DNA of 64,000 nucleotides from Solen grandis (taxonomy: Eukaryota > Mollusca > Bivalvia > Adapedonta > Solenidae), in assembly GCA_021229015.1 (NCBI GenBank), contig CM037782.1, forward strand, positions 41,779,226 through 41,843,225, given 5' to 3'. The position numbers were made by a program, and so were the translations under genes. Below, piece after piece: positions 2,791 to 62,842 of this stretch. The first letter of the stretch is position 1. The number at the start of each line of letters is the position of its first letter. The notes below the pieces were generated by a model that was not told the origin of the DNA, searched no databases, and was given only the letters and a program-made list of their open reading frames with translations.

Positions 2791-2909
2791 AAAGAAAAAT
2801 ATCAGACCACCCTACATACATTTTAAATGTACAAATGTATGTACATAAGACGTATAAAAAGGTTATTTGTCCCATTTATCGACTGACCCTATTCATTTAT
2901 TTATTTTTT

Positions 2910-4477
2910 AGCTCACCTGAGCACAACGTGCTCATGGTGAGCTTTTCTGATCGCTTTTTGTCCGTCGTCCGTGCGTGCGTCTCGTGCGTCCGTTGTCAAC
3001 AATTTCTTTAAACAACATCTCCTTCTAAACTACCCACTGGATTTTGATAAAACTTCACAGGAATTTTAATTATGGGACCCTTGACCAAAGTTGTTAAAAT
3101 TATTTTGATTGGTCAAAAATCTAGGTCACAGGAGCTAAAAATAGATTTTAAAAATGAAAATTTTAAAAATCTTCTTCTCCGAAACCACAAGGCCTAGCCT
3201 TTTGATTTTTGGTATGAAGCATGATCTTATGACTCTCTACCAAGATTGTTCAAATTATGACCCTGGGGTCAAAACTGGCCCCACCCCAGGGGTCACTTGA
3301 TTTAACAAATGCTAATATAGGAAAAACTTGAAAAATCTTCTTCTCAGAAACCACAAGGCCTATATGTTTAGATATTTGGTGTGCAGCATTGTCTAGTAGA
3401 TCACAACCAAGTTTGTTCAAATCATGGCCCTAGGGACAAATTTGGCCTCGCCAAGGGGTCACCTGATTTTACATAGGCTAATATAGAAAAAAAACTCGAA
3501 AAATCTTCTTCTCAGAAACCACAAAGCCTGGGGTTTAGATATTTGGTGTGCAGCATTGTCTAGTAGATCACTACCAAGTTTGTTCAAATCATGACCATGG
3601 GGTCAAATTTGGTCCCGCAATAGGGGTCAACTGATTTTACATAGGCTAATATAGGGGGAAAAAAACTTGAAAAATATTCTTCTCAGAAATCACAAGACAT
3701 AGAGTTGAGATATTTGGTGTGTAGCATTGTCTAGTGGAACTCTACCAAGTTTGTTCAAATCATGACCCTGGGGTCAAAATTGGCCCAGCCCCAGGGATCA
3801 CTTGATTAAACAAAGGCTAACATAGAAAAAACTTGAAAAATCTTCTTCTCAGAAACCACAAGACTTGGAGTTTAGATATTTGGTATGTAGCTTTGTCTAG
3901 TGGGTCTCTACCAATATGTACAAATCATGACCTTTGGGTCAAATTTGACCCCGCAATAGGGGTCACCTGATTTTACGTAGGCTAATATTGGAAAAAAACT
4001 TGAATAATCTTCTTCTCAGAAACCACAGGGCATAGAGTTAAGATATTTGGTGTGTAGCATTGTCTAGTGGATCTCTACCAAGTTTGTTCAAATCATGACC
4101 CTAGGGGTCAAAATTGGCCCAGCCTCAGGGGTCACTTGATTAAACATAGGCTAATATAGAAAAAACTTGAAAAATCTTCTCAGAAACCACAAGGCCTGGT
4201 ATTTAGATATTTGGTGTGTAGCATTGTCTAGTGGATCTCTACCAGGGGTCACTTTATTTAACATAGACTAATATAGGAGAACCCCGAAAAATCTTCTCAG
4301 AAATCACAAAGCCTGGAGTTTAGATATTTGGTAGGTAACATGGGCTAATAGACCTCTACCAAGTTTGTTCAAATCATGACCCTGGAGTCAAAATTGGCTC
4401 TACCCCAGGGGTCACTTGATTTTACATAGCCTTATGATACCAGGTGAGCGATCCAGGGCCATCATGGCCCTCTTGTT
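2910..4477 (+). mobile_element. Family-1 repeat element, long copy with about 180-bp tandem core
   Basis: It begins AGCTCACCTGAGCAC, followed by an imperfect hairpin and a GTCCGTCGTCCGTGCG stretch. It ends CAGGTGAGCGATCCAGGGCC plus ATCATGGCCCTCTTGTT. The outer GCTCACCTG is repeated inverted as CAGGTGAGC near the 3' end. The middle holds about eight diverged tandem units containing TTCTCAGAAACCACAAGGCC and CCAGGGGTCACTTGATT. There is no transposase ORF, so the element is non-autonomous. Its plan recalls bivalve Pearl elements and Helitron/Helentron-derived DINEs, which also carry internal tandem repeats and a 3' hairpin; that assignment is inference. Confidence 0.75.
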
Positions 4478-5130
4478 ATTATTACTTTTATTTTTGTATC
4501 GACCTTTAACTTTTCTCTACCTGTTGCAAACCGCTATTTTCTTAACATTCCCTTACCGACTTCCTTTCTCTACCAACCCCCCCCCCCCTTTTTTTTAGCT
4601 CACCTGAGCACATATGTTTGTTCAAATTATGACCCTGGGGGTCAAAATTGGCCCAGGCCCAGGGGTCACTTGATTAAACATAGGCTAATATAGAAAAAAC
4701 TTGAAAAAATCTTCTCAGAAACCACAAAGCCTGGGGTTTAGGTATTTGGTGTGCAGCATTGTCTAGTGGATCACTACCAAGTTTGTTCAAATCATGGCCC
4801 CGGGGTCAAATTTGGCCCTGCCATAGGGGTCAACTGATTTTACATAGGCTAATATAGAAACAAAAACTTGAAAAATCTTCTTCTCAGAAACCACAAGGTT
4901 GGTTCTGACCCAGGGGTCACTTGATTTTACATAGCCTAATGATACCAGGTGAACGATCCAGGGCCATCATGACCCTCTTGTTATTATTACTTTTATTTTT
5001 GTACCGACTTTTAACTTTTCTCTTCTTGTTGCAAACCGCTATTTTCTTAACATTCCCTTACCGACCGACCTCCTTTCTCTTACCCTCCCCCCCCCCCCTT
5101 TTTTTAGCTCACCTGAGCACATATGTGCTC
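4410..5130 (+). repeat. Local tandem duplication, about 507 bp
   Basis: The end of the preceding family-1 element plus its 3' flank (TTGTATCGACCTTTAACTTT, the C-run, and a new AGCTCACCTGAGCACATATG start) occurs at 4435-4616 and again at 4940-5125, offset by 505-509 bases. Flanking DNA was therefore copied with the element. The copies at 4597-4982 and 5106 onward are better explained by duplication than by independent insertion. Confidence 0.75.
4597..4982 (+). mobile_element. Family-1 element, short copy
   Basis: Starts AGCTCACCTGAGCACATATG and ends with GGGCCATCATGACCCTCTTG. Only about two core units remain between the ends, and one base change breaks the terminal hairpin. It lies within the local 507-bp duplication. 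Confidence 0.65.
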
Positions 5131-5460
5131 AGGATGAGCTATTAGGATCGTTGAATGTCTGTCGTCCACATTTAGTTTGTTTACACTCAAGCATTTTCAT
5201 TTCTTAAGCAATCATTTTCTTTGTGGCAATTTTTGTGACCGTAATATATCAAGTTCGATTATGGCTGATATCAGCCTATTAGATCAGGAGTTATGCACGT
5301 ATTAATATAATAAAATTGCATGTTTTATTTTGTTAACACTCTAGCATCTTTATTTCTTAAGCAATCATTTTCAAACTTTATGAAAATATTTGTGACTATA
5401 ATGTTTTAATCAAGTTAGATTATGGCTGATTTCGGCATATTAGGTCAGAGTTTTGCCCCT
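5106..5460 (+). mobile_element. Family-1 element, 5' part only
   Basis: Starts AGCTCACCTGAGCACATATG with a perfect GAGCACATATGTGCTC palindrome. It continues into two related blocks containing TTCTTAAGCAATCATTTTC and runs directly into the inverted copy at 5471. No 3' hairpin is present. Confidence 0.55.
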
Positions 5461-5470
5461 TTTAATACAA

Positions 5471-6180
5471 AACAAGAGGGCCATGATGGCCCTGGATCGC
5501 TCACCTGGTATCATTAGGCTATGTAAAATCAAGTGACCCCTGGGGCAGAGCCAATTTTGACCCCAGGGCCATGATTTGAACAAACTTGGTAGAGGTCTAT
5601 TAGCTCATATTACATACCAAATATCTAAACTCCAGACCTTGTGGTTTTTGAGAAGAAATTTTTCTAGTTTTTTTTCCAAAATAAGAGATCCACCAGACAA
5701 TACTACATACCCAATATCTTAACACCAGGCCATGTGGTTTCTGATGAGAAGATTTTTCTAGGTTTTCCCTATATAAGCCTATGTAAAATAAAGTGACCCC
5801 TGGGGCAGGGCAAATTTTGACCCTAGGGCCATGATTTGAACATTTTTTGTAAAGGTTTATAAGACAATTCTACACGCTGTAGGCCTTACAGTTTTGCAGG
5901 AGAAGATTTTCTAAGATTGCATTTTAAAATCTATTTTTAGCTCCTGTGACCTACTTTTTCAACCAATCATAATAATTTGTACAATTTTATTAGAGGACAT
6001 CATAAGGATGATTCCTGTGAAATTTTGTCAAAATCCCTTCAGCGGATTAGGAGGAGATGTTGTTTAATGGAAAAAGTTGACGCAAGACGCACGCACGCAC
6101 GGACAGATGGACGGACGACAGACGCCGGACAAAAGGCAATCATAAAAGCTCACCATGAGCATGTTGTGCTCAGGTGAGCT
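5471..6180 (-). mobile_element. Family-1 element, complete inverted copy
   Basis: It reads in reverse: AACAAGAGGGCCATGATGG opens it at 5471, and TGTGCTCAGGTGAGCT closes it at 6180. It carries about three core units. Facing the plus-strand copies, it forms a head-to-head and tail-to-tail cluster. Confidence 0.75.
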
Positions 6181-6189
6181 AATTATCTA

Positions 6190-6889
6190 AGCTCTAGGCC
6201 TTATGGATTCATAAAAGAAGATTTTTAAGATTTTCCTATATAACTCTATGTAAAACAAGTAACCCCTGGTGCGGGGTCATTTATCACCATAGGGCTATGA
6301 TTTGAACAATCTTGGTAATGAACCATTAGATGATGCTTCATACCAAATATCTTAGCTCTAGGCCTTATGGTTTCATAAGAGAAGATTTTTAAAGTTTTTC
6401 CTATATAAGTCTATGTAAAACAAGTGACCCCCGGGGCAGGGCCAATTCTAACCCCAGGGTCATAATTTGAACAACTTTTGTAGAGATTCACTAGACAATG
6501 CTACACGCCAAATATCTTAGCTCTAGGCCTTATTGTTTCATATGATCTGAACAACTTTTGTAGATGTTCATAAGACAATTCTACATACCAATTATTAAAG
6601 CTCTAGGCCTTACAGTTTTGCAGGAGAAGATTTTCTAAGATTGCATTTTAAAAATCTATTTTTAGCTCCTGTGACCTACTTATTCACCCAATCAAAATAA
6701 TTTGAACAACTTTGATAGAGGTCATGATAAGGATGATTCCTGTGAAGTTTGGTCAAAAGCCATCCAGTGGTTTAGGAGGAGAAGTTGTTTAAAGGAAAAG
6801 TTGACGCAAGACGCACGCACGGACGGACGGACGACGGACAAAAGGCGATCACAAAAGCTCACCATGAGCACGTTGTGCTCAGGTGAGCT
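6190..6889 (-). mobile_element. Family-1 element, inverted copy lacking the 3' hairpin
   Basis: Ends with CACGTTGTGCTCAGGTGAGC and contains core units with CTCTAGGCCTTATGGTTTCA. The opposite end has no GGGCC hairpin, so it is truncated or abuts the preceding copy. A poly-T run (about 6935-6960) follows. Confidence 0.65.
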
Positions 6890-6894
6890 AAAAA

Positions 6895-9087
6895 CCAGAT
6901 TTCAGCTTTTTTACCCTACATCACCTTGGCCATCTTTTTTTTTTTTTTTTTTTTTTTTTTGAGATGTAAGTGGATACAATATTTATTTATTTATTTATTT
7001 ATTATTATTGCCTTGTGAAAAATGCAACGGTATCAATTTAGAGAGATTCATTCTCACTTTTCAGCCGAGCAAGATGATTAAAAAAAACCCATTCATAACC
7101 GCATATAACATTCGTACACAGCATTCTTATTTGTCAGAAGGGGGTAAATGTGTTATGCCCCTGTCTATCCGTCCGTTAGCAATTTCGTATCCGCACTGTA
7201 GCTCTTAACCCGCAAAAACGTTAACCATGTCGAGAGGTTTCGGATGAGTAGGTTCAAGGTCACACGTCATACTGATATAATGTTAGAATATTTCGTGTCC
7301 GCTCTATATCTGAAGGAAACTGAAACTTTTTACAAGTAATGTCAATCATGACATGACGAGATGACATGCAGAGCGTAGATTTCATGCTCACACAATTTCT
7401 GTAAGTCATTTACCCAGTATATACCCTTTGCCACTTTTACCTATACAAAGTTAGTTTCTGCCCCAAGTGCTATTCATCCACAAAATTCACATTGTCATAC
7501 CTTCGGACGTTATATTGCCACCATTTGCGATGCCCTTGATGCTTTGTCTCGTCGCTGAACACACACATACACACACTAAACTGCGCTCAATCAATGCAGT
7601 TTAAACGTGATGAAAATATGTACTAAAACCGATTAGTTTTTATGTTGTGGTCTTTACAACGCACCATATTACCACTGCCCGTGGGAACTTCAATACCGGC
7701 TCTGGTGGACACTCGTACCATCGTTATACAATTGATAAAATATGCTTGCACGACAAGCTCCTGATGAGGCATGTGAAATTTTTTTTTACATATCTTACAT
7801 GAATAAAATTCACAACCATCCTTGTATGATTTATCATTTTATTATATAGGTTGTCAAGCCACACAACACACGATAACTCTGCAACGATGCGTAAGCGGGG
7901 AAAATATCAATAAAGCAAAATACAATGACGCCAGCCAGTGGCGAGCTGCAGTTCACGCACATTTAGCATGTAATACGTCCTTGGTAAAATTGGTATATGA
8001 CAAATAAAAACTATGTCGTTCCTTGAAATATGTTCGGTCCTAGGAATAAAATGATATATAAGCTACAAGACCCATTTGATGTTGAAAATCAATAACACAG
8101 TTCCAAATTACAAGCCACTTGGCCTTCTTTACTGTTCCGGTTTTTGCTACAGCAATATTAGGACTTTCAGTTCTCTGATTTGATTTTTTGCGGTGTTGCC
8201 CGTAAATGTAACGCAAGGCATACCAGTTTAAGAAATTGACTACTTAAATTGTTCTCAGAGAATCTGTTTCCAATTCAAACTTTTAGTCCATTTCTAATAT
8301 ACTGGGGCCAAGTTTTGAACAAAATCAGTTGATGGTTAAGCGACAGAAACTTTGTTTAGACCGGCTAATAATAAACTGGGCAAGCCTTCTTTTGAAGGGA
8401 TTTTTTTTGTGTTTCTTTGTTTTTCCTAATACCGCCATGCGCGTTATGCGTTATTACGTGCTAAACAGTTATTTATTCTTAATGTGCATGCATACATTAC
8501 TTTTATTACGCTCTAAATACTATTCTCATAGAATGTATGGAAATTACATAATATGCATATGTTCAAATAAATGACATAACTTCTTGACGCTTGTTCTTGT
8601 TTCTTGGAACGGCCTGTCTCTTCTTGTCGTTATACAGTGGGACTCTGGTGACATAGTTAAATAATTCTAGGTATTCAATTTTATGCTTGCATGAATATTC
8701 ATTCACAATAATACATTTAATATTGTAATAATTTTGTGATGCAGGAAAAAAATGTTGTGAACACAGCACTCGTCTCCGATGGTTCGTGAAATTTTCTATT
8801 CATCACATCTATACACTATTGAAATTCAGATCAATCATTGCACAATCACGTGGCAACTAGCAAATGGCAATAACAAAAACGTGTGATTTTTTTTGCACGG
8901 TCGGAAAACAAGAAAACATTTTGCTTGTCGTAAGAAGCAAAACAGGCATTCAATAGTTTGGCACAAATAACCGTTCTTGGATTTGTTGGAAATGCTCATT
9001 TATATATCGAACACATTTGCTTGTTTTAGGCTGTGCGTATATGTACATGTATATGTAAATAAAGGGATGTTTCCGCGATTAAATATT
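6895..9087. other. No gene seen; poly-T and TTTA tracts
   Basis: A T-run at about 6935-6960 and TTTA repeats near 6982-7005 are followed by unremarkable AT-rich DNA. Short ORFs have no recognisable domain, codon pattern or splice context. The right part should contain the 3' untranslated region of the minus-strand Kelch gene; I found no clear poly(A) signal. Confidence 0.5.
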
Positions 9088-11040
9088 TTATCCCATGAAC
9101 TCCAATCCAAGCGCTCCCATAGATATAGAGGTTTTCGTGAAGCCAAAGTCTTTCACCTTCCACGGCGTACGTTCAGGCAGTGTGACTGCAAGTCTGGCCT
9201 GAACATCAAACTGAATCAAGTTCTCCTTGTTTCCAAAACTGTCATCCTCTCCTCCCAGAATTAACAATTGGTTTCCAAAAGCAACGACGCCAAACCCGTT
9301 TACAGGCGCCTTTTCGATTTTTCCGATGCATTCGGCCTTCTGTTTTAAGTGATAAATGTAAACACCACCTTTGTAAACCATGTAAATGACATTTTCAACG
9401 GTAACAGCAACCATCGAATGTTTCTTGCTTTTAAACGGCAAGGAAAAATCCATGATCCAGCTGTACTCGGAGCTCGTGTCAAAACATTGTACAAAAGTTG
9501 ACGGCGATCTGTGATCGTCTTCAATACTTCCTCCAAGTAAATAGATACAGCTACCAACTACAGCTGCACTTGCTGCTGACACAGGGCGGGCCACTTCACC
9601 GGCACGATCCCATGTCTGCCTACCTATCACGTACTTGTCAACATCCCAAAGCTTGGCTTTCTGCTTTGAATATCCACCGAGAACATAAATGCAATCTTGT
9701 ACCACGCACATATAATGCTGCTCCCTTCCTGAAAACATTTCTGGAAGATTCCTCCACCGTCCTTCTTCGGTATTCCTCCACCGTCCTTCTTCGGTGTCGT
9801 AGCTCATAAAATGTCGCTGGTTCATGGACATCGTGCCGCCAGAAAAATAAACGATTCCTTTGTCTGAGCAAACCGCATAGCGATATCCAAAATTGGTCTT
9901 ATCTGAGCCGAGTTTGTGCCAAGTTTTCTTCTTGAAGTTTAAAGCTGATATGCTGTTTTTGTTGCCATCAACTTCACCGCCGAGTATTACCAAGCACTCG
10001 TCCTTCATGAAAGCAGTGTCTACAAATGGTGCAGCACCATCAGGAGCCCGGATCAGCTTTTGGCAAGCCAATTGCCACATTTCACATAACTCGGGGATCT
10101 TTTCCACAATGCTCGGGTCTAGGTTATCTACTGCAGAAGAACAAGCCTGTTTGATGTCGTTGTTCTCGACATTTGGTGCATTAATCAACGTGATAATGAC
10201 CTCCTCACACTTCTTCTCTGACACACTGTCTTGGCAGACGAACCAAGTCCAGACAGCCGCACATTTAAGCTCACACGAACAGTTTATGTAAGGGTCCGTG
10301 ACACACTCCTTCAGTTCTTCAAGCGAAATATTTTCAGCTGTATCCTGGTTGCAAAACATCGAAAAACTCCTAAGAAGAACGCTTTTTGCAATTCCTGAAA
10401 TTTCATGGCTTTCATTCAGTTTTGCTATTTTCCAAATGTCAAAACAAACTGACTGGTCCATTTCCTTTCTTAAGAAGTCCTCACATTTTGATACCAAGGT
10501 ATCCAGCTTTAGATAAAATGCCAAATTGTACACTGTGACTATACTGGACTTATCAACAGTGTACTTCCCAATGTAAATGTACTTTAAAATAAGCTTTACA
10601 GTGTCTGTATCTCCAGGAAGGTCGACTATGCCTGAATGCGTCTCCTAGAACACAAATGTATCTGTATATAAACATATTGTGAATCATAAAACAGCAATAT
10701 CCTATTATGTATACATATATGTACTGGGCTACAAGTGCATGCAAGTTACATAGATAAGGGATTCTTGTAGTGTACGTTACTGTTACATACATAAATTCAT
10801 TAAATTATAAATAAGATTTTAGTCTATATTTGGCAATACATGTATATGACATACACTCATTTCAACACTCAGCATCATGTCGAAAACCTCCGATGCCGCT
10901 GCTATGACGACCTTGTGACAATGGATCTTGTCGTTGCCGGATGTTCTTATCACAAAATCGGTGTATTTCTCTTCACAAAAATGTTTGTACATTTTTTCAC
11001 ATAAAGAGTTCGTCTGCTTCGTCTGGTACTGGTCGCTCAT
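9088..11040 (-). CDS. BTB-BACK-Kelch protein (kelch-like), two coding exons
   Basis: Exon 1 is 11040-10855 and exon 2 is 10644-9088; together they encode about 580 residues. The donor reads AGT|GTATGT, the acceptor TTCTAG|GAGACG, and phase 0 is kept. I chose the ATG at 11040 because nothing upstream in frame is ATG. Residues about 20-120 form a BTB domain (YTDFVIRTSG, then CHKVVIAAASEVF, then LKYIYIGKY). About 130-230 is BACK-like, and the remainder is Kelch repeats with GG/Y..GG..W signatures (CIYVLGGYS, CIYLLGGSI, QLLILGGED). Such proteins usually act as cullin-3 substrate adaptors. The orthologue among kelch-like proteins cannot be told from sequence alone. A perfect 24-bp tandem duplication at 9748-9795 repeats TEEGRWRN in a Kelch blade. 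Confidence 0.9.
9748..9795 (-). repeat. 24-bp in-frame tandem duplication in the Kelch exon
   Basis: ATTCCTCCACCGTCCTTCTT plus CGGT occurs twice with no mismatch. It adds eight residues (TEEGRWRN) without shifting the frame. The absence of any mismatch suggests a recent duplication, or an assembly artefact. Confidence 0.85.
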
Positions 11041-14460: not shown

Positions 14461-14945
14461 CTTCAGTCCATCTGTCTCTCCATCTTTATGATCTGTTCAT
14501 TTTGTTCTTTTGTTTTCTATTTCTATTTATACCCTGGTACAATCTATTTCTGGCAATCTAACCAGTCACTTGTTATGCAGTATATGAGATAGAAAAAAAA
14601 ATACAATGTATCAACTATTGTATTGTAGATATCTACGTTAGTTTAGTCCTATCATTTTTATTAGCTCGACGTTTCGAAGAAAATGAGAGCTTATACTGTC
14701 ACTCGGGCGTCGGCGTTGCAACACAAGGTTTAAGTTTTTTTCAAACATCAATAATTTAAATACTATCAAAGGTATTCCACCTAAACTTAAAATACTTATT
14801 CACCATCATCACTTCTACCTTACTTCTAAGGCCCACAACCCAGGCTACCCTATTTTTGGAGTTATGCCCCTTTCATACTTACAAAACAGCCAAAATTAAG
14901 GTTAAAGTTTTTACAAAGTTGTATATCTTCAATACTATCTAAGGT

Positions 14946-14970
14946 AGGGGCAATCCGGGTAAGTACGGAC
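14946..14970 (+). repeat. 5' terminal inverted repeat of the pogo element
   Basis: Perfect match to the reverse complement of 19760-19784. It is followed at once by a second, imperfect copy (GGGTAAGTGCGGACGG), so the 5' end carries a doubled motif. Confidence 0.9.
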
Positions 14971-15719
14971 GGACGGGTAAGTGCGGACGGCACGGAATAT
15001 AACCGTGATTTCAACTGTATTTGGTCAGATTTTGTCTAATTAATGGCACATTTCATTCGAGGCACTTCGCGTACTTTGATTTTTAAATAACGATAACTCT
15101 GCAAGGACACAACGATGGCCATCGACATGCGCAATACACGCACCCTTACTTCCTCTTCGAAATTCTGAAACCGCGAACTTTTGAAGTTAAAGTTATACAT
15201 TGAATTGAAACAAAGAATTCAGGTATTAATGACTAATACTTAACATAATATGTCATATAAATGAGCATAAAGTATTTCTGATCATTTCTTGAGTGGATAT
15301 ATGTTTAAAATAAATAGATTCTCTATAATATTTGAAGAATAATAAAGTGTCCGTACTTTCCATTCTATTTTCATATGTCTTAAAACTACGGACACACAGT
15401 TCTTCAAAATTCACATTATTAAAGTCTTAATGCATTATGGCATCTTTCCCCCCTTAAATTCAGCATTTAAATAAATATTTGACATATTTATGATTATTTA
15501 GTGTACGGATGATGATTTTGAACAATGAATTATCAAGTACTCGTATATATGTAGTTTAAAGCATAGGCCCCATATAATTATTTCTGGTATTTTCTTCTTC
15601 TCCAACATCAATGTGATAATCTTTGCCTGTCTAAGCTTTACATCAGTCGATATATAGCAACACCTACAATAAAATCATTACAACCATCGTCATTGTCCAC
15701 ACCATCTCTTCATTATCAA

Positions 15720-16000
15720 TCATGCGCGGATCCAGTGTGTGTGTGTGGGGGGGGGGGGGGGGTAAGAGGTATCCCCCCCCCCCCAATGAATGAATTTGCT
15801 AATTTGTTCAAATAGTCAGTAATATAGTGCTTTGAGATCAAATTATGGTCTCTCTCCCCCCCACCCTCCCACGTACTGAGATTTTAAGAGTTGCCCCCCC
15901 CCCCCGCCCCGTACCCCTCCTCCCTCCCAACACACACACGTTAGCTGAATTTCAAAGCTGAAAATGGACATGGCAAGTATCCCTGTCAGACCCCCCCCCT
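15720..16000. repeat. Homopolymer G and C runs in the transposon 5' region
   Basis: GTGTGTGTGTGGGGGG, long C runs near 15772 and 15894, and CACACACAC occur within 280 bp. They are low-complexity and prone to assembly error. No feature is assigned. Confidence 0.6.
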
Positions 16001-16069
16001 TAGATCCTAGATCAGCACATGCTCATCATCACCACATCATCATCTGTTCATCATCATTCGCTTTTCAGA

Positions 16070-18025
16070 ATGCCAAAGAAATGGATATATACAAAAAGAG
16101 GAAAAACACAGAACTACAGTGCAAATGACTTAGAAAATGCTGTAAAAGCAGTCCAAGAAAATTCTATGTCAGTCAGGAAGGCTGCGGCACACTTTGGAGT
16201 ACCGAAAAGTACCATTGGTGATAGGATAAGCGGGAAACATGAATTGCATGTTCGGAATGGTAGGCCTCCACATATTCCAAACAGCATAGAGCAAAAGATT
16301 GTTGATGCTGTGAAAATGGCAGCCAGGAGAGGAATTGGTCTCACGAGGAAACAGATTTTGGCAAGAACAAACATATGCAAAAAAATGAAAATTTCATCCA
16401 AATATACTACTTTCACGGCAGGGAAAGATTAGTGGGAGGGGGTGAAGCGCAGGCATCCTGACCTTGTCATTAGAAAACCAGAGAAACTTACAACAACGCG
16501 GGCAAGGATGATGAACAGGGAAGTGATAGGCCGATACTTTGATGATTTGGGAACAATTGTGGAAGGGTTAAACCTCCAGAATAAACCGAATTTAATATGG
16601 AACTGTGATGAAATGGGTAAGAACTTCGAACATGATCCAGTAAGGGTGGTTGCTGAAAAGGGCGAGAAAATGTGTGTGAGTAAAACAAGTGCGAAATCTA
16701 ACAATATGACGATAATGGCCTGCGTAAATGCTTCAGGTAGGAGAATGCCTCCAATGTTTATCACAAAAGGTAAAACATCAAGGTCACTGTATGGATTCAA
16801 TACATCGGGAGCGCCAGTAGGAACGCGTTGGTGTTGGCAGAAAAACGGCTGGATGGATGATGCTTTAGGAGAGAGGTGGTTTACAGAGATATTTTTAGAG
16901 TCATGTGGTCCAGAGAGGCCCCAGCTACTGATTCTCGACGGGCACTCATCACACGAAACTCTCGGCCTTATCATGAAGGCTATGGAAGAAAATATCCATA
17001 TACTAGCACTTCCACCTCATACTACGCATGCTCTCCAGCCTTTAGACAAGGCCGTATTTGGTCCCCTCAATCGCGCTTACAATGAAGTATGTTCAGCTTA
17101 TTTACAGGAAAGCGCCTTGCATCAGATAAATAAATGGTCGTTTCCGGTTCTTTTCCGACAGGCTTGGGATACAGCTGTTACTGGCGCCAACATACGCAGT
17201 GGTTTCAGAGCTTGTGGAATTTATCCTTTAGATCGGACTGTCATCCCAGAAACACTCTACGGCCCGAGTGAGCCAACTGATAAACCTTTATCTGTTGTCC
17301 AATCCCCAGTTACTGACGATGGACTTACTGCTCCAGTGGGAGATGAAGAGAAACAAATGCCAACAAAATTTAGAGATCATGCTGTAGTTGCAGAAGCTGC
17401 TGAGCCAATTGTGAGCAATAGGTCCTCTCCATCACCGTCAGACAACATTATTGTTGCATCTCGGCTGTCAGTGCCAATACCCTTGTCTGTCAGCGCAGAT
17501 TCCAGTGATACAATGGATCCTTATCTTTATGGTGAAGTGGGTTTAAATGAATCGTTTGAGTACGAGTCTAATAATACTACAGTCAATCTTGTTCAAAGTG
17601 AGGTTGATATTCAAACACAACAGGATGTTCTGGATATCAGTGATCCTTTTCAACTGTTTCAGCTTATGTCAGATGGCAATGTAGTTGTTAGCCCCGTGTT
17701 TGATGAAAGCGGAAATGATCTTGTGATTGAACACAATAGTCCACCCCTTTCTGGTCCTCTTCCGGCAACAAAGAAAAACACTGAGCAAGATGAAAGAATT
17801 GAAACGAAAGTTGAATCATTTTTCATCCCACCTATTGCAAACTTTCCAACAAAAAAGAAACCAAACAGAAAATCTGTTACCCACCACCGGCTTCTTACAA
17901 GCGAAGATGTCATAAACGAGAAACTTAGAGTTGAAAATATAAAGGTTGAAAAAGAGAAAAAGAAGCAGGCCAGGGCCGATAGAAAATGTAAACCTAGAAA
18001 ACGAATTAAAACTGAAAAGTGTTAA
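16070..18025 (+). pseudogene. pogo/Tigger-like DDE transposase with one in-frame stop
   Basis: One frame runs from the ATG at 16070 to the stop at 18025 (651 codons), broken only by TAG at 16430-16432. The first part has a Psq/CENP-B-type helix-turn-helix (MSVRKAAAHFGVPKSTIGDR). The second part holds the DDE_1 catalytic core with Asp in WNCDEMG (16607), LLILDGHSSH (16937) and LQPLDKAVFGPLN (17045), so the last two are 35 residues apart. The C-terminus is basic. Sequence on both sides of the stop reads GKD-stop-WEGVKRRHP. TAG is one base from TGG (Trp), a natural residue there, so a single nonsense change is likely. The CTTTTCAG just before the ATG could be a splice acceptor of a 5' untranslated intron. 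Confidence 0.85.
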
Positions 18026-18086
18026 AAATGACATATATCCTGTACTTGTTCAATGTTTCATACAAATTACCTGAATGTTCATTTTT

Positions 18087-18670
18087 AGCTCACCTGAGCA
18101 AAGCTCAGGGTGAGCTTTTGTGATCCCTTAAATGTCCGTTGTTCGTCGTGCGTCAACAATTTCAACAATCTTCTTCTCTGAAACTACTCGATGGATTTTC
18201 ACCAAATTTCATTAATATGATACTTGTGTTAGCTTGAGGCTAATTCCTATTTTTATTGAACTTCATGAAGACCTTTGGTTGCCATGGCAACCAGAAGGCA
18301 TAACTTTAAAATATGTTTTCTCAGGAACACACAGACCTACAGATTTGATATTTGGTACATAGCATCAGCCCATGGTGCCTCAACACAATTAACAAAGATG
18401 TGCATCAGGGTTTACCACTCCCGGGACCACGCCTAGATTTTGTATGAAACTATATAAGGGAAGCGAAAAATCTTTACTTCTTAAACCATTGGTTGGATCA
18501 TGAAGAACTTTGGTTGCCATGGCAACCAGGAGGCATAAATTAAACTGTCTTTTCTGAGAAACATACAGATCTACAGCTTTGATATTTGGTATGTAGTATC
18601 TTCTCATAATTCCAGCCTTTCTACAACAAACCAAATTTAGGCGAGCGATTTAGGGCCATCTTGACCCTCT
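18087..18670 (+). mobile_element. Family-1 element nested in the pogo transposon
   Basis: Starts AGCTCACCTGAGCAAAGCTC and ends GGCGAGCGATTTAGGGCC plus ATCTTGACCCTC, followed by a T run. The core differs from other copies: it has two diverged units, each with the perfect palindrome GGTTGCCATGGCAACC. It sits between the transposase stop and the HIRAN ORF, so it arrived after the transposon or was carried as a passenger. Confidence 0.7.
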
Positions 18671-18729
18671 TTTTTTTTTTTTTTTTTTTTTTTTAATATT
18701 GCGTTTATTGTTTTTGTATTTTCCTAGGT

Positions 18730-19116
18730 ATGAAGAAAATACTTATCTACTCAGTTCATGCCGTTGGAATGCATCATCATGGAAATAGGGCATTAACTGT
18801 GGGCGAAGGTTATCTTGCCAAGCATGAACCCGAAAATGATTATGACATGAATGCCATAGCTGTTACTGAATATAATGAGAGACCACCAAGAACTGTTGCA
18901 TACCTACGAAGATCTGACGCAGCTATTATAGCAAAACTTTTTCGCGCACATCTGGTGTATGATAAAATGTTACTTAAACCTAAGTCTGAACCTACATTCA
19001 AGTCAAGGACAGGACCCTCTCAACGATGTAATATTGGATTTTATTGTAAGACTTATCATTTACATGCAGTACAGGAAATTCTAAATGATTCTACACTGAT
19101 GTTTAAAGTTATCTAA
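18730..19116 (+). CDS. HIRAN-domain protein encoded inside the pogo transposon
   Basis: A 128-residue ORF from the ATG at 18730. Residues about 8-75 show the HIRAN signature: VGMHHHGNRALTVGEGYLAK, then EPENDYDMNAIAV, then VAYLRRSDAAIIAKL. This corresponds to the family's G-E ... EP-NPYD-NAI-V ... G-(I/L)-R core. HIRAN domains (HLTF, Rad5) bind 3' ends of single-stranded DNA. TTTTTGTATTTTCCTAG just before the start could be a splice acceptor, so this may be the last exon of a second transcript. AATAAA lies 155 bases after the stop. It is on the same strand as the transposase and inside the inverted repeats. A role in transposition is inference; chance capture of a host exon is the alternative. 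Confidence 0.75.
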   Translation: MKKILIYSVHAVGMHHHGNRALTVGEGYLAKHEPENDYDMNAIAVTEYNERPPRTVAYLRRSDAAIIAKLFRAHLVYDKMLLKPKSEPTFKSRTGPSQRCNIGFYCKTYHLHAVQEILNDSTLMFKVI

Positions 19117-19269
19117 ACTTGTGAAAATAACTTGCAAGAGCCTTATTGTTTGTTGAGTAATCTAATGTGTGTTTGTTAAGATAATTAAGTTTTCTGAGTC
19201 ACTGTTTTTATTATGTGTGTACTATTTCAAAACCAGACTTTGAGGACTGCACACGTATACATCTCTGCC

Positions 19270-19275
19270 AATAAA
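19270..19275 (+). terminator. Candidate poly(A) signal after the HIRAN ORF
   Basis: AATAAA in CTGCCAATAAAATCATAG, 155 bases after the HIRAN stop and still inside the transposon. It would let the element end its own transcript. Confidence 0.45.
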
Positions 19276-19759
19276 ATCATAGTGAATGTCTACATAAATA
19301 CCTGACCTTTTTTTCAAGATCTTTATTATAAATATATTTAACATGAATTTAGACTATAGTAAAAGTATGAGTAAATTATAATTTAATTAACTCTCAAAAT
19401 ATGTATAATGTAAACTATTCGCTGATATGTAAACAAATACCATGTTTATTAGCTTTTTCTCTATACGTGTATTAGAGTTGGATTTTTAAAAATAATAAAC
19501 TGTCCGTACTTTCTCTATTGAAATATGGTGTCCGTACTTTCCATTTTTATGTCCGTACTTTCTGTACTTTGTCCGCACTTACCCGGATTTAAAGAGATGT
19601 CAAATAACGCATGATTTCGTTGTTTTGGACCATATCAGTCCATATATTTCACGATAAAGTCCGTAAGAAATATATGATCGAATGAAAGGCAGTGATTCGG
19701 CACGCGAGTTCTTAATAAAGGTAACGAAAGTTAGTTTCGAACATCAGCTTTGTAAAAAT

Positions 19760-19784
19760 CGTCCGTACTTACCCGGATTGCCCC
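19760..19784 (-). repeat. 3' terminal inverted repeat of the pogo element
   Basis: Reads CGTCCGTACTTACCCGGATT then GCCCC on the plus strand, next to the right-hand TA duplication. Another partial copy (CACTTACCCGGATTT) lies about 190 bp inside. Confidence 0.9.
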
Positions 19785-21518
19785 TATATAACTGAAACTT
19801 CAAGTACATATTCACCATCATTACCTCTACCTTACTAACAAGGCCCATAACTCTTGCTGTACTACTTCTTAAGTTATGCCACTTTCATACTTAGAAAACA
19901 GCCAAAATCATGGTAATTTTTTACATAGTTGTACTATCACATGTATTTGACTGAAACTTCAAGTACTTATTCACCATCACTACCTCTGCCTTACTAGCAA
20001 GGCCCATAACCCTGGCTGTACTACTTCTTGAATTATGCCCCTTTCATACTTAGAAAATAGCCGAAATCATGGTTATTTTTTTTTACAAAGTTGTATATTT
20101 TCAATACTATCACAGGTATTCCACCATAACTTGGAATACTTATTTATTGTTTACCCACACTACCTCAACTTTACTGGCAGGGCCCATAACCCTATATGCA
20201 GTGTATTTTCAATTTTACCCTTTTATACTTAGATATTTTTTAGTTGGTGGATGATCGATCACATTCTCAAATTGATTCTGCATACTAATTTCACCAATTA
20301 CAAATTTCAGATATTACCACTGCAGTTGGTGAATCAGCAGACCACATTCTCAAATTGATTCTGCATGCTAATTTCACCAATTACAATTTCAGATTTTAGC
20401 ACTGGAGTTGGCGGATCAGCACCACCACATTCTCAAATTGATTCTGCATGCTAATTTCACCAATTAAAAATGTCATATTTGTTTATTGGAGGTAATAGAA
20501 TAATTTCTACTATAACTAGAACATATCATCATTGATATGTACCATACTATTAAAATCCATAAAACTGTGTCTTAGCAACTGAGAAAAGTCGAGCGCGCTG
20601 TCTTATGGACAGCTCTGGTTGTACTGGTTGTCGTATCAGCAACCTGAAAGTAGAACAGTATCACTTTATACAGGTATGTAAGTGTGGACTACATTGGATG
20701 AGACATATGTGCAATATGTTAAACTTCTTTCTTGTTTAAATCATTGTTACTCAATGAACTGTTCCTAAGTTTCTCTGAAGAATATTCATGGGTTAGCCTT
20801 CTTTTTTAGCTTGACTGGCGTAGTAAAAATTTTAAATTGCAATTGGGAACTCTTTATAAATTGTGAACCTGGTATAGATGTGTTGCTAATTAAAAGAATA
20901 AACTACAAAAGTCTGTATCTGTCCATCATAATGGCTGCAACAAAATAAGAAGTTGATTATGAACAGATGGCAGATCACTTCAAATGTGTTGAAGAAACAC
21001 ATATAAAATACTAATTTTATAGGGTTTTTGAGTTGTAAGGGTACTGATGTAAGCTCATATGAAAGTCTCTTCAATCAAGGGTCTTTCTTTCATATTTGTA
21101 TATACATGTACTTATCATAACCAAAGTATTGAGGTATTTATTTTTCCACATGTATGTAGAGGAAGACTGCAAACAAAAATTATAAAATGCTTTCTTTGTT
21201 TTCTCAATTCTGAATAATGATACATGCATTTATAAATAATCACTGAATCAGCAATTGAAAAAAAAAGAGTTGATGATCATAATGAAAAAAAAATGTTGAA
21301 TTTTGAATGATATGCTACCTTTAGATTACCATTTTATGATATCCTTTTTGGCTTGTAAACATTGCATATTTGCCAGTGGATCACATCATTTTGGCAAATT
21401 GCACTCAAAATAAACATCTCAGTAACTTGAAGTAGTCATGTGGCTCAAAATATCAAGAGGTGAATGATTCCTTTCATATAAGTTGTTTTGTGTATTTCAG
21501 ACAAAGGAGTTAACCACC

Positions 21519-24500
21519 ATGTCACAGCTTGCGGAGAGCAAACCACATGAACATTGTGAGATATGTATAAAAATTAACTGTACGAAGAAGCCTGATGGTG
21601 TTGCAGTCTGTACGATGGTTTACTGTGACAATGGGTGTGGCTTCAGATTCCATTCCTGCAAAACAAGTGAGCATAAACTTCTCTGTTTTAGAGAGAAAGT
21701 GCCTTGTATAAATAGTGCCTTTGGTTGTCCATTGGAAATAATGCGAGATAAAATGTCAGCACATCTTACAGTTTGTCCGGCAAGTGTGATCCTGTGCTCC
21801 AGAGAATGGAATCGCTGGCCGATGCATAGTCAGGATGAGGGCTGGAAAGCTCCTCTCCCATTTAAAAACCCCCATGTAAAATGTGGTCAACTTGATGTAG
21901 CTTTTGCTTTGAGGGACCAAAAAATGTTGGTGGAATCTTTTAAAACTCCTTTAAAGACTCGGAGAATCTTGCGGAACCCTTTGACCTCCTGTTATCCAGC
22001 AGTGCCAATCCAGTCTCACTCCAGTACATTAGACAGTCCTACCTCAGAAGCCTCCCAGTTGTCTGACGATGATTCAGAGACGCCCTGGGATTTAAACCAG
22101 TCTCCACCAGGTCTCCTGCGCACAATATCACAGCAGTTGTCATTTGGGAACCAGCATCAAGCTCAGGCTAGTAAACCAGAAAAAAAGCCTCAGAACAACC
22201 AGTCACTGATAGCTTCACAAAAAGAGACAGAAAAATTAATGAAGTCTTTAGATTATGTTACTGGCAGGCAAGGACTAAAAAGGTTGGCAGAACTAGCTCA
22301 ATTACATAAAGACACATCTAGTGAAGCACAGGAAGTTGACGAGACTGCTGATACAAAACTGGATACACTTAAAATAGATACCAGTGACTCTCAAACTGTA
22401 AAGGTTGATGGGGATGGAAGTGACATAGATATTTATTTAGAGAAGAAAAAGTTGTTTGAAATTCTAGGAGTGGATTTAACAACACATTTTATTTCATCAT
22501 ACCAGGCTAAACCTCCAAAGATGTTCACGTTTTTATGTGGGCAGGAATATCGCCGTGACCAGTATCCCTGGCATGTGAAGAATTTCCATGGTGACGTTCA
22601 GTCTAACCTCAACCACTGGTTTGAACAAAGGTGCCCTCTGTCTTATGCAGGATGTACTTTTTCTTTTGTTAGGTTTGAACCTTGCCTTCCAAGTGGGACA
22701 CTTGTCCATAGCCCTGTTTTACAAACTCTAGGATTTTCTTGCGAAAATGAATTCCTGGCTGATAAGGAACTTTCATCTGGGAATCTAACCAATGAAGAAG
22801 ACATTAGTACTATCGCAAGTCGTACACGACTGAGAGAAGCCACACCTGAGATCTACACATCCTATAAATGTGACTCAGGGGTGTCCGTCATCCCTCGCTA
22901 CAGGTCATTGTCGCGGGATATTTCTCCTGTCAAACACTCTGCCTCTTCTGATGACTTCCAATTCTCCCTGATCGACCTTCCGTTCGAGGTTTTACAGAAT
23001 ATCGTCCGATACCTTGATAGTTTTAGCATCCAGCATCTCTCGATGACTTGCAAAATTCTGCAGAGTGTCTGCTGCAGTCTTCTGGACCAGCTTGGGATTG
23101 TCTCCCTTGTCTGGGAAAAAACAAAGTCTGTGGACACTGGTGTTAAACCAGGGTGGAATATAACCTACAAGGTGTGTAGATCAAAGATAGATGTTTATAA
23201 CTTCTAACCACTCAAGAACTTTTAAAGAGTGACTTATACAACTACATGTAGTAATAACAAATCCCAATCAGCCTGCACAGTACTCTTCTATTTTTTTTAA
23301 ATAAGAAAGAAACACCACTTAACCTACTGAAATTTAAAATTGTTTGCAGTCTGATCTGGTCTTTACCTATTGGGATCATTGAATATCTGTCATCCACAAT
23401 TAATTTGTTTACATTCTAGCTTCCTTACTTTTTAGCTCACCTGAGCACAACGTGCTCAAGGGTAAGCTTTTGTGATGGCCCGTCGTCCGTCGTCAACAAT
23501 TTGGCTTGTTAACACTCTAGAGGCCATATTTTTAGGCCAATCTTCATGAAACTTGGTCAGAATGTTTGTTTCCATAAAATCTTGGACAAGTTTGAAATTG
23601 GGTCATGAGGGGTCAAAAAGTAGGTCACGAGGTCAAGTCTTATAAAAACCTTGTTAACACTCTAGAGGCCACATTTTTAGCCCAATCCTCATGAAACTTG
23701 GTCAGAATGTTTCTCTCCATAAAATCTTGGACAAGACCAAAATTGGGTCATGTGGGGTCAAAAAGTAGGTCACAGGTCAAGCTTAAAAAACCTTGTTACA
23801 CTCTAGAGGCACATTTTGGCCAATCTATGAAACTTGTCAGAATGTTTGTCTCCATAAGATCTTGGACAAGGTCGAAATTGGGTCATGTGGGGTCAAAAAG
23901 TAGGTCACGAGGTCAAAGCTTAGAAAAACCTTGTTAACACTCTAGAGGCCACATTTTGGCCCAATCTTTATGAAACTTAGTCAGAATGTTTGTCTCCATA
24001 AGATCTTGGACAAGGTCGAAATTGGGTCATGTGGGGTTAAAAAGTAGGTCATGAGGTCAAGTCTTAGAAAAACCTTGTTAACACTTTAAAGGCCACATTT
24101 TTGGCCCAATCTTTATGAAACTTGGTCAGAATGTTTGTTTCCATAAAATCTTGGACAAGTTCAAAAGTGGGTCATGTGGGGTCAAAAAGTAGGTCAATAT
24201 GAAAAATCCAACATATGTTGCTCATTTATAATCAGGTGAGCGAATCAGGGCCATCATGGCCCTCTTGTTTTAAGAAATCATCTTTCAGATTTGATGACAA
24301 TATGAATATAGATGGCTATAATTTCTGTTTGAATATGACTGATAACACTCTGTTGGTCTGGAATTATTATTATTATTGAATTATGGAAGAATGCCAGATA
24401 TCATTTTGTTTGCACTCGAGCAGTCACATTTATGAAGCAATCCTGATCAAACCTTGTAACAAATCTTAATGACATTAATATCATTATAATCAGACTGATG

Positions 24501-27274: not shown

Positions 27275-27659
27275 TCCCCAATAGTTGCCACTTTGTCCGT
27301 CTGATGTCCATCTGTCAGTCCATCAGTCAGGAAGTCAGAGCATATAACTAAAACAGTTATTAACATGAAACTTCACGTGTGGATAGATCTAATAGATGTG
27401 AGGTGCAGTGCACAAGAATAGTAACTGCACATCATATTTTTAGAGATATTGCCCTTTGTTTAATTTCATACTTAATTTTTGTCTACTACTGCACAATGAC
27501 ACATATAACCTTGAAACTTAATAGTTGGGTAGACTTCATAGTGGGAAATTGCAGTGCACAAGAGCAGCAATATTGGACATATATTGCAATATATTGTAAT
27601 AATTTTGAATATTTTAAAATACTGGTATTGGAAAATCATATTGTGAGATCATATATCAT
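27275..27659 (+). mobile_element. Repeat-derived block ending at the assembly gap
   Basis: It contains TTTGTCCGTCTGATGTCCAT, a CATGAAACTTCACGTGTGGA block and GATATTGCCCTTTGTTTAAT, which match the body of the repeats at 35.9-36.5 kb. The open frame running through it into the Ns is therefore probably not coding. Confidence 0.5.
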
Positions 27660-27759
27660 NNNNNNNNNNNNNNNNNNNNNNNNNNNNNNNNNNNNNNNNN
27701 NNNNNNNNNNNNNNNNNNNNNNNNNNNNNNNNNNNNNNNNNNNNNNNNNNNNNNNNNNN
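27660..27759. other. Assembly gap, exactly 100 N
   Basis: A round 100-N run is the usual placeholder for a gap of unknown size. Any gene crossing it is incomplete. Confidence 0.95.
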
Positions 27760-28245
27760 CCCACATTGCCATTGCAACAAGTGATTCGCAGAATATCTGA
27801 AAGTAAAGGAAGTCTGTTTGATTCTGCTGTAAAGGTTTCAAACAAAGAAGGCATCTTAAAGAAAACTAATGTAAATGGACCATTGCCTTTGAGATTCAAC
27901 CATATGGTGATTTCACAGTTTAAAGAAATCCATTTTCCTGATTGCTTTTTCTCAACATCACGAGGCAACAACTGCTTTCTTATAAATGATGATGTTGGTA
28001 TTATCAGGAATATAGTTGTTAAGGATCATACTGAAAAGATGTTTGTTTATGAACAATTTTTAAATGTGACAGATTTTTTTAATTTCCCATTACCATCTTC
28101 AGACCTTAGAATAAAGCGTGTTGCTGACCTTAGTGGCATATTGTGTGTCGCTGATGTAAAAGACATTGTTTGTAAATGTGTACTTCTTCCTATTGATGAT
28201 GGCTTTGTATGTATACCGCTTATACATGGCTTGGAGTCAGCGTGA
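27760..28245 (+). CDS. Partial ORF, 3' end of an unidentified protein
   Basis: It is open from the gap to TGA, about 161 residues. The composition looks coding (FNHMVISQFKEIHFPDCFFS, GNNCFLINDDVGIIRNIVV, KCVLLPIDDGFVCIPLIHG). From memory this layout (an NNCFL block, then a conserved segment ending in V..PL.H near the C-terminus) resembles the tail of a widespread uncharacterised family often found near mobile DNA in fish and invertebrates; I cannot name it. The 5' part is lost in or beyond the gap, and frame continuity across the Ns is accidental. It is on the same strand as the DUF4806-type gene 330 bases downstream. The two may be separate genes or parts of one mobile locus. Confidence 0.5.
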   Translation, partial: PTLPLQQVIRRISESKGSLFDSAVKVSNKEGILKKTNVNGPLPLRFNHMVISQFKEIHFPDCFFSTSRGNNCFLINDDVGIIRNIVVKDHTEKMFVYEQFLNVTDFFNFPLPSSDLRIKRVADLSGILCVADVKDIVCKCVLLPIDDGFVCIPLIHGLESA

Positions 28246-28572: not shown

Positions 28573-31500
28573 ATGTTAAAGTATCTGGTAGTTGAATTTG
28601 ATACGAATGAGATAGCGGTCATTTCTGAAAAATGGCTTATCAAGGACAGTGGCACAGATGGTTCCGGTGAAAGCGTACTTTGGCCCCCCATCAAAACATC
28701 AGCCAAACTAAATTTGGCATTGACAAAGCATGCAGAGCCAGACAACACATGGGTGTCTTGTACAAGTATAAGAACAATGTACACAACTGGTAAATACTGT
28801 ATACCTTGTTTTCATTTCATTTCATATATGTATAATATTGAACTAAAATGCATGCATGCACTTACATTTCTTAGTTTTCATATATCCTTGGACAGAAGTA
28901 TGGTAGGGGCCACCGTGGCCGAAGGACTACAAATATCATGGCCCCTCACTGCTGTGGGTTTGAATTCGGATTTTTCATGTGAGGAAGCTTTCCAGCTGGA
29001 TAGCAGTAGGTTGGTGGTTCTACTCGGGTGCCTCTGTGTAATTAGCTGGACGTCACTATATGATTGAAATACAATTGCAGCGACGGTAAATTTCGAAACA
29101 CATAGAAGCATAGGTAGTCATACCCATACCTTGATTCCTTTTTCTTTGCTTTAAACATATATAACAAAAACTTGGTGTTTGCTAAGTAAGAGCTGTAGAG
29201 ACCCTGCTGATAATATATATTTTGTGAGGCTTTTAAGGAAATGCAGAGAGCTGATCTCTGTGCACACTGCCAAGAGAACATGGCAAGAGAGGTTTAGTGA
29301 TTTTTAGTATCAATTATATATACTGATACCATTCTCTCTGATGCATCACTCCCATTTAAGATTGAATGTTCATATAATTTTGTATGGGTGATATTTATTA
29401 ATCGAATCAATTCACATTTCTGTCACCGTACCAGTGGCCGAGTGGTTAGGGTGTTGGCCTCAGGAGGAGGTCATGGGTTAGATCCGCGGCCGCAACATAT
29501 CAAAGTTGTAAAAAATGGTACTGGTATAACTCCCTTGCTTGGTTATCAGGACTGGTTGGCCTGGTGTTGGGATAATGTGACTGGGTGTGGTATTATGTCA
29601 CATGTCTACGGTGTGATACTGCAGTCTGGCAGCACTATATCTGTCTCAAGTAGACATAGTCTCCAAATGACCGAAATACTGTCGGTGGGATTTTAAATCC
29701 AACAAACAAACAAATAATTACATATATTTCTATCCTTAATGTTATACAGAGAGGCAAATCATTACCATTAACATGTTAGCTGTAGCAGGTATATCAGTTT
29801 TTTTTAATAGCTTTCATGGGAACTCAAACCATTGATTTTTCAATTCAACTTAAAATAATCATTTTATTATTTTGTGAGCAGTTAACTTTTGACATTGAAG
29901 TAAGGGGCCCCCGTGATTGAAGGGTAAAGTCGTCAACTTAACACTCACTCAGCCCCTCACCGCGTGGGTTCGAGTCCCGTTCAGGACTTCGGATTTTTAT
30001 GTGAGGAAGCCTTCAAGCTGGCTTGCGGTAGGTCAGTGGTTCTACGCGGGTGCCTCTGTGTACTCGGGGTCTTCCTCCACCTATAATTAGCTGGAGGTCG
30101 CTATATGATAGAAATATTATTGCAGCGACAGTAAATTCCAGCACAACAACAACAACATTGAAGTAATATTTTAAAAATTTAATATGTCATACTCTATGGT
30201 TAGTATCTGTTTAGGCCCAACCCACGATTCATCAACTCAGAGTCAGAATCGGAGAGAGAGAGCGAAACTGATTACCCGACTCCCCCCAAAAAAATTCCAT
30301 TCGCTAAGAAAATCAAATTACCACAACCTCAAGAGTCACCAATACGACCACAACCTCAGTCGTCTCCAAGACCACAACCTCAGTCGTCTCCAAGGCCACA
30401 ACCTCAGGCATCTCAAAGGCCACAACCTCAGTCGTCTCCAAGACCACAACCTCAGGCATCTCCAAGACCACAACCTCAGGCACCTCAAAGGCCACAACCT
30501 CAGGCATCTCCAAGGCCATCTCAAAGGTCACAACCTCAGGCATCTCAAAGGCCACAACCTCAGTCGTCTCCAAGGCCACAACCTCAGGCATCTCCAAGAC
30601 CACAACCTCAGTCGTCTCCAAGACCACAACCTCAGTCGTCTCCAAGGCCACAACCTCAGGCATCTCAAAGGCCACAACCTCAGTCGTCTCCAAGACCACA
30701 ACCTCAGGCATCTCCAAGACCACAACCTCAGGCACCTCAAAGGCCACAACCTCAGGCATCTTCTAGGCTGTCATCATCTACACCCAGCTTGAACCAAGCT
30801 CAGAATGTTTTATCAGGTAAAAAAATGTATTCTTAAATTAGTTAAATGTAATATTGTTTCGGCAAGTGAAAAATCAACTTGTCCGCTTGCTATGAGGAGT
30901 GAATGGTAGTGCAGGACAATCAAGCATTTTCTTGATAATTTTCTTCATATGACCATCTCAGCCTGAGGCAGGACGAGTGAAGATTTTAGGAATTTTTCAG
31001 GCCTGTGTTTTATTGTATAAGAGAATAGGGAAGCTGGAGACAGATTGTTGCTTATAATATGTAGTATTGCTTATTCAATTAAGTTTGATCATCTGGTTAG
31101 TTTCCTTTTTTTTAAATTTTTAGTCATTATGGTTTATATCTTCCTTGAATGGATTTTATTTTCAATTTTATTTGATGTTACAGGTCGTGACATAGTAATA
31201 CTCAGAACCCTGGAAGACATAAAACAGGATCAACGCGAAATGATGGCTATGATTTCTGGGCTGTTCAAGCGACTGGATGGTTGTGGGGAGAAAAACACAG
31301 ATGCTCCAGATGGAGTATGCCTTCCAGTATCAACGGAGGAGCAACTCAAGGATACTGAAGAAATTCTGAAGGAGCCAGGCTCTATGAAAATGATGGTATA
31401 AACATATTAAAATATGTTCAAAAGATATATTTTTTAATGTATTTATTTTTTTTGTCTTGTTAAGAGAGCCGATAAGCTTAAATGAAAATCTTGAGTTCCT

Positions 31501-56700: not shown

Positions 56701-57581
56701 ATTTTGGAATGGTGGACGAAGTTTAAAGACAGGTTCTAAGTTTAACGTTATTTAAGTTGGTTTGGACATGCCAAATAGTATTAAATCTAGCTATTTTCAC
56801 ATAGTCAGTAGTTAACCTATACCATCGTCATGGTCACTCATCATCTTGTAATTTTGATATCAATAGTATAATTGATGATGATGATGATGATGATGATGAG
56901 TTGTGTACTCAAAGTTATAAAAAGAAGGGAAAATATTTTAGGGACAAAATTGTAGAAGCTCACAGATCCCCGCTGGGGATGAGAACATTTCTCGAGCTTT
57001 CCAGTTGCTAAGTACTGGTTCAACCCAGGAACCATCAGAATGGAGAAGTGTAAAAAATTATATAAAGACTTGTTATTGTTGTATTTTCTCAAATTGGACG
57101 TAAAATTGAGTTATGCACTAGTAGTCTGTTGTAGTCCTAGTTTGTCGCGTTTATGCGTATTGTGCATGGTGGTGTTGTTTTTGACAGAGGACGTCTTTAA
57201 TGCCCAGCACCTCTGATTTCGATTCTCTTGGACATTTTCTGTCAGGGTTGCCCTCCCTTAGCACTTCTAGACAGGTGCACCTACATACAGAGACAGATGC
57301 GGATACGCTATCCTAGCTCGCTCCGAAGAGACCCCCTGGTTCTTTAACATGTCCGGTGTATAGAACCGATACTCAACCACTGTCTAGATGAACCAGAGCT
57401 AGGCTTCTAGTTTGGCGGGAAACACTGAAAGGTGTTCCAGCTATTTTCAAAAGTTCGACAGAGATTTGAACCCTGGATTAGTACGTTACCACTGAGCCAC
57501 TGCTCCGCCATAGAAGTAGTTTGAGACGAGGAGATAAATGTTAACTATGTAAAATTGAACAGCTCCACAAATCAAAGATAA

Positions 57582-57655
<74 letters not shown>

Positions 57656-62520: not shown

Positions 62521-62672
62521 GCAATACACTAGATTTCTTTGTGCGAACGTGTGCGTGTGTGTCACTCTTTTGTGTAAGCTTACCTCTAAGGTACTGATTG
62601 GATTTGAACATGATTCGAAATGAAATAGTTGAAAATACATTAAACAAATTTGCTGCCCATTAGAAACAATAC

Positions 62673-62677
<5 letters not shown>

Positions 62678-62741
<64 letters not shown>
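62678..62741. repeat. (AT)n microsatellite
   Basis: About 30 AT units; the ORF crossing it (poly Y-I) is an artefact. Confidence 0.9.
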
Positions 62742-62744
<3 letters not shown>

Positions 62745-62842
62745 GAATGGTTTTATTTACTTTGAATTCGTTGACAAATTATGCAAGTGTGGAATAAAAA
62801 GAAAATATTTATCATGCTCATTTTTTGCTAAGTTTTTTTAAG

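Follow-up and report, generated by a model that had tools for sequence, protein, structure and literature searches.

A stretch of 64,000 nucleotides from the bivalve mollusc Solen grandis (contig CM037782.1, forward-strand positions 41,779,226 to 41,843,225; hereafter the window, with positions counted from its first letter) carries a transposon of 4,838 bp, spanning 14947-19784, which encloses a transposase frame and an open reading frame (ORF) for a protein with a HIRAN domain. The reading favoured here, and held with about even confidence, is that of a pogo-superfamily transposon with two genes, in which the HIRAN ORF is the transposon's own second gene, both genes are spliced from one pre-mRNA and the HIRAN product holds 3' ends. 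The observed basis of this two-gene reading consists of the domain, the transposon ends, the strand common to both ORFs and the subterminal motifs that flank them; the HIRAN ORF is regarded as the second gene also because of the spacing of 90 nt that separates the ORFs when a dispersed repeat between them is discounted, the acceptor-like sites at both starts and the codon usage.

The handling of the breaks and gaps left by cut-and-paste transposons is usually ascribed to the host. If the favoured reading is correct, a transposon bringing its own end-binding protein would make the handling of such breaks directly testable, and a fork-remodelling domain, as present in HLTF and Rad5, would be linked to transposition.

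The HIRAN frame and the transposon enclosing it

The features of the transposon are given below, with the method of identification in brackets.

14945-14946, unstranded: TA target-site duplication, left (flank read)
14947-14971, + strand: left terminal inverted repeat (TIR), 25 bp, perfect (inverted-repeat search)
14959-14982, + strand: two donor-like CGG/GTAAGT sites at 14959 and 14977, possibly used in splicing (donor scoring)
14961-15358, unstranded: left subterminal GTCCGYACTT motifs at 14970 (-), 14988 (-) and 15349 (+), putative binding sites (motif scan)
16067-16068, + strand: acceptor-like AG ahead of the transposase ATG, putative (acceptor scoring)
16070-18025, + strand: transposase frame with HTH_psq and DDE_1, DD35D, and an in-frame TAG at 16430-16432 (ORF list, Pfam)
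18082-18695, unstranded: dispersed repeat, apparently inserted between both ORFs (window self-matches)
18726-18727, + strand: acceptor-like AG ahead of the HIRAN ATG, putative (acceptor scoring)
18730-19116, + strand: HIRAN ORF, 128 aa (ORF list, Pfam)
19270-19275, + strand: AATAAA, possible poly-A signal (sequence scan)
19502-19770, + strand: right subterminal GTCCGYACTT motifs at 19502, 19530, 19551, 19571 and 19761, putative binding sites (motif scan)
19760-19784, - strand: right TIR, 25 bp, perfect (inverted-repeat search)
19785-19786, unstranded: TA target-site duplication, right (flank read)

The HIRAN ORF matches the Pfam family PF08797 with 29.4 bits (E 7.4e-7) against a gathering score of 24.7, over profile positions 5-70 of 96, which bears out the HIRAN domain proposed in a preliminary description of this DNA. 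No other Pfam family is found in the ORF, RING and SNF2 being without a match and the frame ending with a stop at 19116, and a search of NCBIfam returned no family for it. The length of the ORF is by itself weak evidence, as an ORF of 128 aa or longer arose 9 times when 18026-19759 was shuffled 2,000 times; it is counted as real because of the domain match, and a chance ORF was rejected on the grounds that this match lies above the Pfam cut-off.

The two TIRs are identical at 25 of 25 bases, and their sequence has no other match across the window with up to 3 mismatches allowed, nor did any of 100 shuffles give a match. TA, read in the flanks, lies directly outside each TIR as a target-site duplication. 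The earlier description of a 4.84-kb element ending in perfect inverted repeats of 25 bp, with TA duplications beside them, is thus confirmed, as is the location of the HIRAN ORF inside it and on the strand of the transposase, since the ORF lies between the TIRs and both frames are on the + strand; the AATAAA that had been attributed to the ORF is present at 19270. The motif GTCCGYACTT occurs eight times in the window, in every case within the transposon, with three occurrences to the left and five to the right of both ORFs and one on each side falling within the TIR. These motifs look like transposase-binding sites.

Proposed expression of the two frames and alternative explanations

Between the two ORFs lies a 614-bp repeat, overlooked in the preliminary description, which has matching pieces elsewhere in the window. 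Six of the matches have the left end of the repeat in common with it, and three matches (4498, 5003, 6959) reach its right end within one base. The repeat is most simply explained as a later insertion; inspection of its surroundings by eye gave no clean target duplication. Once it is removed, the distance from the transposase stop to the HIRAN ATG comes to 90 nt (56 + 34).

Both start codons sit 1-2 nt past acceptor-like sites, a further feature that had not been described. Among all the AGs on both strands of the window, the acceptor scores at 18726 and 16067 rank in the top 0.41% and the top 0.64%, respectively. Of the 2,717 ATGs of the window (both strands), 9 are preceded within 5 nt by an acceptor-like site that scores 5.02 or more, and both ORF starts are among the nine, the score being home-made with assumed frequencies and the cut-off picked after the data had been seen. 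The two top donor scores in the transposon belong to the CGG/GTAAGT sites, of which the one at 14959 falls within the left TIR and the one at 14977 directly internal to it, and AATAAA is absent between both ORFs. When compared with random non-coding stretches, the HIRAN frame ranks in the top 1.2% of 3,000 by the codon usage of the transposase and in the top 12.7% by that of two host genes. The codon usage of the HIRAN ORF thus resembles that of the transposase more than that of the host genes, which is mild evidence because the models are small.

This anatomy suggests that a single pre-mRNA starts with a non-coding exon, which would be joined to one of two acceptors, that ahead of the transposase ATG (16070) or that ahead of the HIRAN ATG (18730), giving two proteins. 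The HIRAN domain of HLTF binds 3' ends of single-stranded DNA. By analogy, the HIRAN protein may hold single-stranded 3' ends that are exposed where the transposon or its target site has been cut or gapped, and could help to protect or repair them. Protection or repair of cut ends, and direction of insertion to replicating DNA, had both been put forward in the preliminary description and are conceivable roles. A wider proposal, considered improbable, is that of a pogo-superfamily lineage in which a stand-alone, alternatively spliced HIRAN protein is a regular component and, by capturing free 3' ends, ties excision or insertion to replication forks or to repair linked with them.

Several observations weigh against the two-gene reading. 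The transposon is known from a single copy, and ORFs of pogo elements are described as transposase-encoding only in the pogo section of Gao et al. 2020 (PMC7386202). Besides the home-made nature of the acceptor score and the late choice of its cut-off, the presumed acceptor (21499) of an F-box host gene described below rates just 0.02, and the score is therefore no reliable predictor. The transposase transcript could terminate ahead of the HIRAN ORF because of an ATTAAA (18005) in the last part of the transposase frame, which speaks against a transcript common to both ORFs; a second ATTAAA, at 18539, lies in the inserted repeat. Under the host codon model, one antisense frame reaches 0.075 as against 0.073 for the HIRAN frame. 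AlphaFold2 models of the HIRAN ORF are unusable, with a mean predicted local distance difference test (pLDDT) score of 31.9 for the single-sequence and 32.5 for the three-sequence model. Of the residues Y72 and Y93 of HLTF, which stack on the bound dinucleotide (PMC4666394), Y93 aligns to a tyrosine of the HIRAN ORF (Y38) but Y72 to a histidine (H16), by a numbering counted by hand on the HLTF alignment.

A possible, though somewhat unlikely, alternative is that a HIRAN gene or a processed piece of one was captured from the host or from another mobile element by this copy or a few copies, as a one-off passenger with no role in transposition; the finding would then be one of ordinary gene capture. 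Such a passenger would agree with the single copy seen, with the pogo section cited above, where no non-transposase ORF is described, and with the interruption of the transposase frame, owing to which there need be no selection on this copy. It is less readily reconciled with the tight packing of the two ORFs, which are 90 nt apart without the repeat, with the placement of the HIRAN ORF between both sets of subterminal motifs, with its transposase-like codon usage and with the presence of an acceptor-like site ahead of each start codon.

A donor lying within the transposase might instead be spliced to the acceptor at 18726, so that HIRAN would replace the transposase's own tail at the C terminus. 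Donor-like sites in the required phase exist: use of the one at 17598 (score 3.71) would retain DDE_1, and that of the one at 16737 (5.49) would cut it. However, phase says little, since 6 of the 12 top-scoring donors from position 16260 onwards have the required one; a donor close to where the transposase ends (17988) scores -1.5, and an ATG belonging to the HIRAN ORF itself follows straight after the acceptor. Such a fusion is regarded as quite improbable. Still less probable is an origin of the HIRAN ORF with, and as part of, the dispersed repeat, the end of which lies 34 nt ahead of the ORF; the three window matches that reach the right end of the repeat are unaccompanied by a second HIRAN-like stretch, of which none was found in the window (next best tblastn match, E 3.4), although transport of the ORF by this one copy of the repeat is conceivable. 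An exon of a host gene, for example of an HLTF relative, around or beside which the transposon landed was rejected as very unlikely, for while HIRAN does occur in host repair proteins, the ORF has its own stop, is enclosed by perfect TIRs with TA duplications and lacks RING and SNF2, and HLTF matches it with 12.4 bits (E 1.3), several unrelated chains scoring higher in the same table.

Placement of the transposase and precedents

The ORFs 16019-16432 and 16442-18025 lie in the same frame and are split by the in-frame TAG at 16430-16432, which is missing from the preliminary description. Because its transposase frame holds this stop, the present copy is probably non-autonomous. With translation begun at the ATG at 16070 and the stop written as X, the frame gives 651 residues, in which HTH_psq (E 3.8e-10) and DDE_1 (E 2.9e-32) are matched; a separate Pfam search gave DDE_1 (PF03184) at E 2.6e-32. 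There are 35 residues between the second and third catalytic aspartates (DD35D), and the first aspartate lies in NCDEMG, as taken from the translation. No match to the transposase was found in plasmids, nor in solved structures at E up to 1.

Two defining features of the pogo superfamily, namely DDE_1 with a DDD triad and TIRs with a TA duplication, are present. The element had been labelled as pogo/Tigger; the pogo-superfamily part of this label is upheld by DDE_1, DD35D and the TA duplication, and, judged by its domains and not by a tree, the transposon is a pogo-superfamily element of unplaced family. The Tigger part could not be sustained, as HTH_psq is present and neither CENP-B_N nor HTH_Tnp_Tc5 is among the 7 families matching at E up to 10, in a search in which the hmmscan filters may lose weak matches. 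According to Gao et al. 2020 (PMC7386202), Tigger transposases carry CENP-B_N with HTH_Tnp_Tc5 or HTH_Tnp_Tc5 alone, unlike the HTH_psq seen here, whereas Fot/Fot-like transposases carry HTH_psq and/or HTH_Tnp_Tc5 with DD35D; the Tigger label was rejected because a psq domain with DD35D fits the latter. The TA duplication and DDE_1 are nevertheless common to Tigger elements, and a spacing of 35 falls inside the Tigger range (DD29-36D) of the same paper.

The likeness to Fot/Fot-like elements, as described there, comprises DDE_1 with DD35D, HTH_psq, a length inside 1.2-5.2 kb and a TA duplication like that of some Fot and Fot-like elements. The TIR of 25 bp differs from the 40-60 bp of most Fot/Fot-like members, and the second ORF with HIRAN is a further difference. 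Fot-like elements are not listed for animals in the text of that paper. DD35D is given for a set of pogo groups by Dupeyron et al. 2020 (PMC7325037), in which extra ORFs are mentioned as possible in DNA transposons.

DNA-processing second ORFs in DNA transposons have a precedent in ISL2EU, for which a second ORF with a YqaJ exonuclease, of unknown role, is reported (PMC4482050). In both elements the transposase ORF is accompanied by another of the DNA-processing type, ISL2EU differing in its transposase of the PHIS group and in YqaJ, as against the pogo superfamily and HIRAN here. With respect to these sources, it is a HIRAN partner of a pogo element that would be new. Among the matches listed for the open-access literature, no description of a HIRAN gene carried by a pogo element was found; nothing in that literature was found to join HIRAN with Crassostrea or HIRAN with DDE, and the word HIRAN has 0 occurrences in the main text of PMC7386202.

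Relatives of the HIRAN protein and neighbouring sequences

The HIRAN ORF has the Pfam HIRAN domain and the motif YDxNAI in common with HLTF, but unlike HLTF and Rad5, in which HIRAN is joined to RING and SNF2, it is a stand-alone protein. A search of genome contigs with the HIRAN ORF gave 20 stretches that fit the pattern, two of which encode a relative, both in metagenome-assembled genomes of Methanosphaera (L001 and L002). In phmmer comparisons with the ORF, these two archaeal proteins reach 25.6 and 21.9 bits; in a shuffle control with one of them, 1,776 of 2,000 shuffles were reported, the top one at 9.0. They resemble the HIRAN ORF in standing alone (117 vs 128 aa), in the motif EPENDYDM and in 33% identity over 80 residues, and differ from it in being archaeal genomic genes and in leaving the C-terminal part unaligned. 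That the ORF is nearer to the archaeal proteins than to HLTF carries nothing firm on its origin, because the archaeal proteins were picked by a scan with the HIRAN ORF as query whereas HLTF was fixed. An unannotated phage record of 6.8 kb from human faeces (MT839880.1, 4935-5207) encodes a stretch 48% identical to L002, with 78% of L002 covered.

Searches of viral contigs with the HIRAN ORF, the C-terminal transposase ORF, the inner 22 bp of the TIR, the two Methanosphaera proteins and an alignment gave no relative. The HIRAN ORF has no match in plasmids and three weak records in phages (E 0.03, 0.03 and 0.4). In PHROGs it matches phage families of unknown function, the best being phrog_18569 (E 5.9e-5).

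The host gene downstream of the transposon (20674-23207, + strand) has zf-TRAF_2 and F-box_4 domains and is presumably FBXO30/40-like. A donor-like CAG/GTATGT at 20674, about 0.9 kb downstream of the transposon's right end, may close a non-coding first exon of this gene. Part of a BTB-Kelch-type gene, with BACK and Kelch domains, lies at 9088-10533 (- strand). A dense cluster of inverted-repeat pairs with arms of up to 276 nt occupies 2900-7000, and pairs of inverted repeats separated by about 5 kb (57539-57668 and 62661-62776), one of them 69 nt long at 99% complementary, possibly mark a further DNA transposon. The ORF 27379-28245 includes a run of 34 X, corresponding to about 100 N (the window contains 100 N), i.e. 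an assembly gap. The ORFs 30184-30792 and 52976-53571 contain repeated units (HNLRHL-like, SYTLIL-like) and look like tandem repeats translated as protein.
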